From contig DASWYF010000049.1 in the NCBI GenBank assembly GCA_036405135.1, positions 1 to 64,000 of the forward strand: DNA of 64,000 nucleotides, written 5' to 3'. The notes under the pieces are model-generated. The model was not told where the DNA came from. It did no database searches and was given only the letters and a program-made list of their open reading frames with translations. Position 1 is the first letter of the stretch. Every line of letters begins with the position of its first letter. Made by a program: the position numbers and the translations under genes. Source of the stretch: Verrucomicrobiia bacterium (GTDB lineage Bacteria; Verrucomicrobiota; Verrucomicrobiia; Limisphaerales; JAEYXS01). Shown in pieces: positions 1-61,714 of the stretch.

Positions 1-52
1 AGGGGTCGGATGGTTTCATTGCTCTTTGACATAGTTCCTTATTAAGGAACGC

Positions 53-78
53 AGAATTAAGAATGGTGAATGAAGAAA
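53..78 (+). repeat. Solo copy of the left arm of the four-helix element
   Basis: These 26 bases match 20191-20216, the left inverted-repeat arm around the four-helix-bundle gene, at 24 of 26 positions. No four-helix gene lies next to this copy. It could be a remnant of an excised or decayed element, or another member of a dispersed repeat family. Confidence 0.5.
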
Positions 79-19601: not shown

Positions 19602-20192
19602 ATGGCACGCACTCCTTCCACGATGGTTCCGCTGGGTACACCGGCTCCGCACTTTTCCCTGCCTGATCCGAGCGGGAAGATTTATTCGCTGGACCAGTTC
19701 AAGGGCGCTCCGGCGCTCGTGGTGATGTTCATCTGCAATCATTGCCCGTATGTGAAGCATATCAGGGCTGAACTTGCTAAGTTCGGGCAGGAATATCAGG
19801 CGAAGGGTGCGGCGATCGTGGCGATCAGCGCGAATGACATCGTGAATCATCCGGACGACAGCCCGGCGAAGATGGCGGAGGAGGCGAAGGCTGCGGGTTA
19901 CACGTTCCCGTATCTGTATGATGAATCGCAGGCGGTAGCGAAGGCATACAAAGCGGCGTGCACACCCGATTTCTTCGTGTATGACAAGGAACAGAAGTTG
20001 TTTTATCGCGGGCAGTTCGATGAGAGCCGTCCGCGGGTGGAGAAGATTTTGCCGGTGACGGGGAAGGATTTGCGGGCGGCGGTGGATGCGGCTTTGGCTG
20101 GGAAACCTGCGCCTTCGGAACAGCGCGCAAGTCTCGGTTGTAATATCAAGTGGAAGAATGGAAACGAACCTGAATATTTTAAGTTAATTTAG
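19602..20192 (+). CDS. Thioredoxin-like (peroxiredoxin/redoxin) protein
   Basis: This 196-residue protein has a thioredoxin fold. The redox motif is CNHC (Cys45-Cys48) in VVMFICNHCPYVKHI, the typical form in the 'thioredoxin family protein' group related to AhpC/TSA. The segment ACTPDFFVYDKEQKLFYRGQFDESRPR is also characteristic, with a third cysteine. No signal peptide is seen, so it probably acts in the cytoplasm on disulfides or peroxides. Its TAG stop (20190-20192) lies inside the left arm of the inverted repeat around the next gene, so that repeat begins exactly at the end of this gene. Confidence 0.9.
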   Translation: MARTPSTMVPLGTPAPHFSLPDPSGKIYSLDQFKGAPALVVMFICNHCPYVKHIRAELAKFGQEYQAKGAAIVAISANDIVNHPDDSPAKMAEEAKAAGYTFPYLYDESQAVAKAYKAACTPDFFVYDKEQKLFYRGQFDESRPRVEKILPVTGKDLRAAVDAALAGKPAPSEQRASLGCNIKWKNGNEPEYFKLI

Positions 20193-20588
20193 AATTAAGA
20201 ATGGAGAATGCAGAAAAGGATTTGCGGGAGCGTACGAAGAAGTTTGCCCATAGGGTTATTCGTCTGTATTCGGCTCTTCCTAAATCCACGGTCGCTCAAG
20301 TGTTAGGACGGCAGTTGCTCAGGTCTGGAACTTCAGTGGGAGCGAATTGTCGAGAGGCAGATCGTGCTAGGTCGAAAGCTGAATTTATTTCTAAGATAGG
20401 AGAGTGTCTTCGTGAAGCCGATGAAACTCTCTATTGGCTTGAGTTGATCCGTGACGAATCCTTGCTGCCAGTTGTGAGGCTTGAACCCATTCTTATCGAA
20501 GCAAATGAATTGGTGGCAATATTGGTGACTATTCTCAAACGCGCGCGAAGTGGTTGATTTCTGCATTCTTAGTTCTTCATTCTAAATT
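20186..20588 (+). mobile_element. 403-base inverted-repeat unit carrying the four-helix-bundle gene
   Basis: The arms 20186-20216 and 20558-20588 are 31-base inverted repeats matching at 27 positions. The left arm begins over the stop of the redoxin gene and runs into the first five codons of the four-helix gene. The right arm begins directly after that gene's TGA and ends 2 bases before the ROK start. The unit is therefore an exact one-gene cassette squeezed between two neighbours. No transposase and no clear target duplication are visible, so mobility would have to be supplied in trans. A near copy of the left arm lies at 53-78. Confidence 0.4.
20201..20557 (+). CDS. Four-helix-bundle protein (23S rRNA IVP/TIGR02436 family)
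   Basis: This 118-residue, all-helical protein is recognised by the family pattern RSGTSVGANCREADRARS in the second helix, followed by FISKIGECLREADETLYWLEL. The family was named from genes inside intervening sequences of 23S rRNA in Leptospira, Coxiella and others, but many copies, like this one, lie outside rRNA. The function is unknown; the S23 protein forms a pentamer of four-helix bundles. The start codon lies within the left inverted-repeat arm and the stop abuts the right arm. No Shine-Dalgarno sequence is visible; expression may come from the upstream gene 8 bases away. Confidence 0.92.
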   Translation: MENAEKDLRERTKKFAHRVIRLYSALPKSTVAQVLGRQLLRSGTSVGANCREADRARSKAEFISKIGECLREADETLYWLELIRDESLLPVVRLEPILIEANELVAILVTILKRARSG

Positions 20589-20590
20589 TT

Positions 20591-21502
20591 ATGTTCATTG
20601 GAATCGAAATCGGGGGGACGAAGCTCCAGTTGGTGGCGGGAGATGCGGATGGGGTTATCAAAGAGCGCCGTCGCTTCAATGTAGACAAGGAGCGTGGCGG
20701 AGAAGGGATTCGCGAGCAGATCGCGGGGGCGTTGCCGGAGTTGATCGCGACGACGAAGGCGACAGCGATCGGTGTAGGATTTGGCGGGCCGGTGGATTGT
20801 GAGACGGGGCATATCTGTTGCTCGCATCAGATCCAGGGGTGGTCGGAATTTCCGATCGGTGATTGGTTGAAGAAGCTGAGCGGGTTGCCGGTGAAGGTGG
20901 ATAATGATGCGAACACGGCGGCGTTCGGCGAAGCGTTGTGCGGCGCGGGCAAGGGGTTCAATCCAGTGTTCTACATCACCATGGGCAGTGGTGTGGGAGG
21001 TGGTGTGGTGGTGGATGGAAGGATTTATCACGGGGCGAAACCGGGTGAGGCGGAGATCGGGCACATCCGATTGGATAAGACGGGGACGATCGTGGAGGAC
21101 CGTTGCTCGGGTTGGGCGGTGGACCGGCGCATTCGTGAAGCCTGTGCGGGGAGTCCGAAATCCAAGCTGGCGGAGTTGACGCGGGGGATGGTGCGCGGTG
21201 AGGCAACGCAATTGGTCGCTGCTTTGAATGCGAATGATCTGTTGGCGAAAGAGATTTTGGCGGAGACGGCGAGTGATCTGGCGTTCGGTTTATCGCATGT
21301 GATGCATCTGTTTCATCCGGAAGTGATCGTGCTGGGTGGTGGGGTGTCGTTGATCGGGGAGCCGTTGCGGGTGGCGGTGGAGAAGGCGCTGGCGGGGTTT
21401 ATCATGGAGGCGTTTCATCCGGGGCCGAAGGTGAGGCTGGCAGGGTTGAGTGAGGATGCGGTGACGGTGGGGGCTTTGAAACTGGCGGGGTTGGCGAAAT
21501 AG
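20591..21502 (+). CDS. ROK-family sugar kinase-like protein without the zinc motif
   Basis: The N-terminus has the phosphate-binding loop of the ASKHA fold (MFIGIEIGGTKLQLVAGD). The catalytic aspartate is in VDNDANTAAFGEA (Asp106), and the second phosphate loop is YITMGSGVGGGVV. EAEIGHIRLD (Glu155, His158) matches the sugar-binding segment. The usual zinc-binding cluster CxCGxxGCxE that follows in most ROK kinases is absent; only DRCSGWAVDRRI with one cysteine is present. Phosphorylation of glucose, N-acetylglucosamine or a related sugar is likely. The gene starts 2 bases after the right inverted-repeat arm. Confidence 0.88.
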   Translation: MFIGIEIGGTKLQLVAGDADGVIKERRRFNVDKERGGEGIREQIAGALPELIATTKATAIGVGFGGPVDCETGHICCSHQIQGWSEFPIGDWLKKLSGLPVKVDNDANTAAFGEALCGAGKGFNPVFYITMGSGVGGGVVVDGRIYHGAKPGEAEIGHIRLDKTGTIVEDRCSGWAVDRRIREACAGSPKSKLAELTRGMVRGEATQLVAALNANDLLAKEILAETASDLAFGLSHVMHLFHPEVIVLGGGVSLIGEPLRVAVEKALAGFIMEAFHPGPKVRLAGLSEDAVTVGALKLAGLAK

Positions 21503-41510: not shown

Positions 41511-41541
41511 AATGACGAATTCCGAAGCACGAATGACGAAG

Positions 41542-61449: not shown

Positions 61450-61714
61450 GGGCGAATACTTTCACACTGAGAATGGAACGCAAGTTTCGGGATACGGATG
61501 AAATAATATTCAATCTGCTTTCGAATTGCAGGTGACTAATAAAACGCACGTAACGCTTACCACCCTCGCCCCTTGGAGGGGAGAGGGCCAGGGTGAGGGG
61601 TGCCGGGATGTCGTCTGAACACAGAAATGCAATTCCTATTAGAGCTTCGGATTTGGAGCTTCTTTTGAGCTTTGAGCTTTGAATTTGGAGTTTTTCTCTC
61701 CTACACTCCCCCGC

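Follow-up and report, generated by a model that had tools for sequence, protein, structure and literature searches.

IVP genes between inverted heptad-repeat arms as candidate short mobile cassettes outside rRNA

The IVP unit between a redoxin and a ROK gene

The window, the whole stretch of 64,000 nucleotides from a Verrucomicrobiia bacterium that was analysed here, carries a compact unit in which a gene for an IVP (S23) four-helix-bundle protein is enclosed by two inverted arms (Table 1). The arms are 31 nt each, lie 341 nt apart and pair at 27 of 31 positions (87% complementary), as had been described in a first-pass annotation. The same annotation had placed the redoxin stop codon inside the left arm and the start of the right arm directly after the four-helix stop; both placements hold, the former being the TAG at 20190-20192 and the latter falling on the first base past the stop codon. 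Its statement that the arms bracket exactly one gene is correct in that a single ORF is enclosed, but the left arm includes the IVP start codon and the first five codons, so the arms are not wholly outside the gene. It had missed that the arm consists of tandem 7-mers, four in number.

Table 1. Features of the IVP cassette and its surroundings in the window
Feature	Coordinates	Strand	Remarks
Whole IVP cassette, 403 nt	20186..20588	+	Left heptad arm, IVP gene and right heptad arm; occupies the redoxin-ROK junction
Left arm, four 7-nt units	20186..20216	+	TTTAGAA-TTAAGAA-TGGAGAA-TGCAGAA; carries the redoxin stop codon and the IVP start codon
IVP / S23 four-helix-bundle protein, 118 aa	20201..20557	+	PF05635, TIGR02436
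Right arm, inverted heptads	20558..20588	+	Pairs with the left arm
Upstream neighbour, AhpC/TSA-redoxin family protein	19602..20192	+	Last three codons and stop (KLI*) are insertion-junction sequence
Downstream neighbour, ROK family kinase	20591..21502	+	
Solo gene-less copy of the window cassette's arm family	48..75	+	23/28 identical

When left and right flanks were mismatched, 0.17% of the pairs reached the arm score of the window cassette (19), and 36 inverted repeats of a similar kind were found in 1.25 Mb of the source genome as against none in a Markov-simulated 418-kb copy of one contig. When the cassette was folded as RNA, both arms came together in one closing stem (z -3.7).

The proposed membership of the enclosed gene in the four-helix-bundle family of rRNA intervening sequences was confirmed by Pfam (PF05635, E 2.8e-17) and NCBIfam (TIGR02436, E 2.2e-24). 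PF05635 was the sole Pfam family detected in the ORF, and neither a transposase or recombinase gene nor specifically a Y1 (HUH) transposase lies between the window arms. We know of no catalytic residue in the IVP family. The protein is kept under purifying selection in the genus, with a dN/dS of about 0.04-0.06 between the window IVP and its copy in the same-genus genome G001, and of 384 sampled genomes of the phylum Verrucomicrobiota, 305 encode IVP proteins.

An AlphaFold model of the window IVP consists of four long helices (pLDDT 95). Among solved structures, 2RLD and 2GSC come nearest, both containing five chains; next are Avd (4DWL) and a complex of a diversity-generating retroelement (DGR; 8UB7, TM 0.75). 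Avd shares with IVP the four-helix-bundle fold, membership in a pentamer family and a nucleic-acid partner, which might suggest that IVP is an Avd serving a reverse transcriptase as part of a DGR. Unlike DGRs, however, the source genome (97.8% complete) has no detectable PF00078 reverse transcriptase, and we regard this explanation as highly improbable.

Heptad arms across phyla and gene families

IVP loci were sampled from same-order relatives (n = 29), named genomes of many phyla (n = 80) and plasmids (n = 7), and arms were called at a score of at least 14. Among the loci of many phyla, 58 of 80 had arms, compared with 2 of 283 control intervals in those loci (0.7%); together with the mismatched-flank and Markov-simulation counts, these control intervals rule out a chance inverted repeat. 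The overall count of 91 armed loci out of 123 is probably low, as loci below the threshold often still show 7-mers. In the 72 arms that were 24 nt or longer, the best period was 7 in 62, 8 in eight and 4 in two; self-match at lags 7 and 14 averaged 0.70, compared with 0.32 in shuffled arms. Arm length peaked at 31-34 nt, the C content of the coding-strand left arm was 9% (versus 26%), and the unit itself was a different 7-mer from locus to locus. A further 30 loci picked by a different profile gave arms at 17, none in 58 controls, and a period of 7 in 12 of 14 long arms. No similarity to 16S or 23S rRNA was detected at any of the 123 and 30 loci. Another candidate role for the heptads, that of all-frame stop cassettes (7 being 1 modulo 3), was discarded, as all three frames were stopped in 43% of left arms and in 39% of unit-permuted ones.

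Where both neighbours were found, the upstream gene was co-directional with IVP at 65 of 75 loci, with a median distance of 1 nt between the upstream stop codon and the left arm, and at 49 of 75 loci the cassette was co-oriented with both neighbours. Given the shortness of operon spacers, this stop-adjacent, co-directional placement could have arisen by selection alone. The neighbours were of all sorts, including ATP synthase, gyrase and carbamoyl-phosphate synthase; 108 neighbouring proteins fell into 135 Pfam families, none with more than four members, a diversity too great for a link of IVP cassettes to one pathway or to defence. Three plasmid-borne cyanobacterial IVP genes (L121, L123 and L126) lie in apparent defence operons (CRISPR-associated, DUF1156/HEPN, and DISARM with a type IIL R-M system).

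Ten pairs of similar cassettes were found, with unrelated flanks in four pairs and common flanks in six; the latter were inherited or moved together with their neighbours. In contigs of Flavobacterium (L162) and Bdellovibrio (L189), four flanking proteins are common (65-87% identical) and an IVP cassette stands at the equivalent place. This block looks like a horizontal transfer.

Inverted arms were also associated with GxxExxY genes (PF13366, PD-(D/E)XK nuclease fold). In the source order, 24 of 34 such genes lie between inverted arms, with a period of 9-12 nt in 22 of 23. At loci L015-L019 and L288-L316 these arms comprise about three units, e.g., CACAGATGGA. GxxExxY cassettes thus look like a second family of gene cassettes, similar in kind to those of IVP. 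The source genome also holds a built-in comparison in its eight RAYT-like Y1 transposase (Y1_Tnp) genes, seven of which (L317-L323) are situated between paired GC-rich palindromic REPs without a 7-nt period, while the eighth has no significant arms. Arm design is therefore predictable from the enclosed gene family: 7-nt units for IVP, 9-12-nt units for PF13366 and palindromic REPs for RAYT (Fisher test for IVP arms of period 7-8 versus PF13366 arms of period 9-12, p 2e-20).

The presence of these eight transposase genes raises the idea that another enzyme, for example one of the RAYT-like proteins, moves the IVP cassettes in trans with IVP as a passenger. This is improbable, as the RAYT genes reside in the wrong repeats or lack significant arms, and the 7-nt design accompanies IVP in many phyla.

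Within the IVP family, protein identity correlated with heptad similarity (Mantel r 0.42, p 0.001), also when GC content and arm composition were controlled for (r 0.36, p 0.002). Four IVPs (L135, L138, L145 and L186) that are mutually 65-73% identical all have 8-nt arms, with two of the four periods assigned by eye, and their nearest relatives include 7-nt members too.

Filled sites, empty sites and gene-less arms

Six of the seven IVP genes of the source genome, that of the window included, lie between inverted arms, with a distinct 7-mer at each (e.g., TATGAAT, CAGTTTT, GATTTAC, AATGACG and AAGCTCA). Of the five armed cassettes other than the window's, four (L008, L010, L012 and L013) have a clean empty site in a same-genus genome. 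The L008, L010 and L013 sites are empty in G001 and that of L010 also in G002, while the L012 site is filled in G001 and empty in G002. The L009 junction is IVP-free in both G001 and G002, with a spacer of 78-92 nt. Judged by these empty sites and IVP-free junctions, the IVP units of the source genome are inserted cassettes. Within the resolution that these diverged genomes allow, insertion swaps out a short spacer without duplicating it, and visual inspection of the junctions gave no clear sign of a target-site duplication. There were no near-identical cassette pairs at different sites of the source genome, hence no recent jumping was seen.

The redoxin-ROK junction without a cassette, for which relatives were searched, was found in eight genomes, each from another family of the order, with the two genes directly adjacent and 8-108 nt apart; this adjacency is old. 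The redoxin-IVP-ROK order is not general, and the window cassette was seen in the source genus only, in both readable genomes; G002 was uninformative at this junction, its contig ending inside redoxin. G001 has the gene order of the window and retains the arms, with a left arm identical at 31 of 31 nt, so the cassette was most simply inserted before the split of these two species, and the window copy is inherited within the genus. A second full copy was not found in the source genome. The redoxin C-terminus is at or near (E/D)YF in five of the eight relatives, and the last three codons and stop of the window redoxin come from junction and arm.

Another rival explanation is an ordinary operon gene beside which an inverted repeat arose by chance. 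Gene order and arms are indeed retained in the one comparable same-genus genome, but IVP is missing at the junction in eight other families, and arms at 91 of 123 IVP loci compare with 0.7% of control intervals. The empty sites and control counts refute this account, to which we give hardly any credence.

At the redoxin-ROK junction of another family (L249), there is a gene-less heptad-like hairpin, AAGGCGGAAGGCGGGAATGA with its inverse, and a solo TTGGACT heptad run is present at this junction in L254. In G001, an AGAAT-type heptad arm occurs in an apparent primosomal-helicase coding region (L057, near 1501).

Arms were also encountered without a gene. The arms of six resident IVPs each had 3-21 further matches in 1.25 Mb of the source genome, the count for the window arm family being inflated by solo copies within a larger repeat, whereas foreign arms had a median of about one match (enrichment of resident arms, p 4e-4). 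In a second genome (0.4 Mb), cognate arms were enriched in the same direction, without significance (p 0.10). Some of the matches in the source genome form gene-less hairpins, at C20:392432-392589 and C13:327080-327158, with several more among tRNA-like genes at C13:314-316 kb. In the latter region (L116, G000:C13:314000-316400), apparent tRNA genes are spaced apart by gene-less GATTTAC hairpins of the L010 cassette's family. Within the window itself, the L008, L012 and L013 families are represented by solo heptad arms at 312-339, 41511-41538 and 61663-61690.

A candidate class of short cassettes

Both the IVP protein family and the rRNA elements that encode it were known before, and IVPs inside the 16S and 23S genes of CPR bacteria have been published (PMC11270868). 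The rRNA intervening sequences with an S23p/IVP ORF, such as that of Coxiella burnetii, resemble the window cassette in protein family, in a size of about 400-430 nt and in complementary ends forming a stem of 28-31 bp, and in Coxiella the ORF start likewise adjoins the 5' arm (PMC4990558). In that arm, the heptad GACAGAT occurs three times and GACAGAA once; the stem is 28 bp long and is cut by RNase III (PMC4990558). The Coxiella paper is our one source for heptads in rRNA intervening sequences, no rRNA-embedded copy being among the loci fetched here, and its authors regarded them as strain variation (PMC4990558). In contrast, the heptads described here are general, differ in sequence by locus and, in the window, stand between two protein genes. 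The heptad design as a general feature outside rRNA, its tie to the gene family and the filled and empty sites appear to be new, as no prior account was found in open-access full texts (a scope outside which most subscription journals fall).

Another parallel is offered by REPIN-RAYT systems, in which the Y1 transposase TnpA_REP is encoded between its own REPs and many REPs are gene-less. IVP cassettes are alike in having one gene between inverted repeats and, in the source genome, dispersed gene-less repeat copies. They differ in that IVP is no Y1 nuclease and its arms are tandem 7-mers rather than GC-rich palindromes. Intergenic 7-nt tandem units also make up the cyanobacterial STRR, another heptamer array, and the TAACTGA arrays of Beggiatoaceae. 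For the latter, the part of the report considered here proposes a repeat-binding protein without identifying it and mentions no IVP gene flanked by inverted arms that pair (PMC4679880).

The main rival to a mobile cassette is an RNA-processing cassette without mobility of its own. Its arms would form a transcript stem that is cut by RNase III and regulates IVP translation, and it would spread passively via recombination or horizontal transfer. The single closing stem, the IVP start codon within the left arm, the 49 of 75 loci co-oriented with both neighbours and the common flanks of several similar cassettes all fit this idea, as does the cutting of rRNA intervening sequences by RNase III (PMC4990558). 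However, RNA processing alone leaves unexplained why the period is 7 in IVP arms but 9-12 in those of GxxExxY, why resident arms have gene-less copies and why IVP sequence is linked to heptad sequence. We therefore consider it rather unlikely as the whole explanation.

Our preferred reading, which we hold to be reasonably probable, is that these are widespread short mobile cassettes, comparable to REPIN/RAYT, in which IVP, acting as a pentamer, would recognise the heptad arms that enclose its gene. The cassette would enter at or just past a stop codon, in the intergenic spacer, and then be inherited. The first-pass annotation had suggested a non-autonomous mobile unit outside rRNA. Insertion outside rRNA stands, given the IVP-free redoxin-ROK junction in eight families and the empty sites of the sister cassettes; non-autonomy is one possibility, and the enclosed IVP gene may itself be the mobility factor. 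Taking the architecture, its generality, insertion, selection, the gene-family link and the protein-arm correlation as established, we infer arm binding by IVP, its action in trans and the chemistry of movement. Both solved relatives of IVP are pentamers, and the protein may recognise its own arms through their heptad units, in the form of a DNA or RNA hairpin. With about 4.5-5 units in an arm, each subunit of the pentamer could, speculatively, take one unit of 7 nt. IVP might then protect, process or help copy cassettes and gene-less hairpins of its heptad family, as RAYT does for REPs. In the transcript, the IVP start codon would be hidden within the stem, which would also present a cleavage site for RNase III, as in the Coxiella rRNA intervening sequence (PMC4990558). 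The intervening sequences of rRNA would be cassettes of this kind that had settled within ribosomal genes.

More tentatively, and as a possibility to which we give less weight, the two cassette families may belong to an undescribed class of mobile elements in which proteins other than transposases read a fixed repeat period: IVP pentamers 7 nt (8 nt in some lineages) and GxxExxY nucleases 9-12 nt. Each protein would be matched to its own arm and spread gene-less hairpins in trans, with rRNA intervening sequences as the special case in ribosomal genes.

IVP proteins are very widespread yet uncharacterised. An arm period specific to the family and a unit specific to the locus supply a ready candidate substrate for each protein, making function testable by binding and swap experiments. 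The heptamer repeats of bacterial intergenic DNA, so far unexplained, also gain a candidate protein in IVP.
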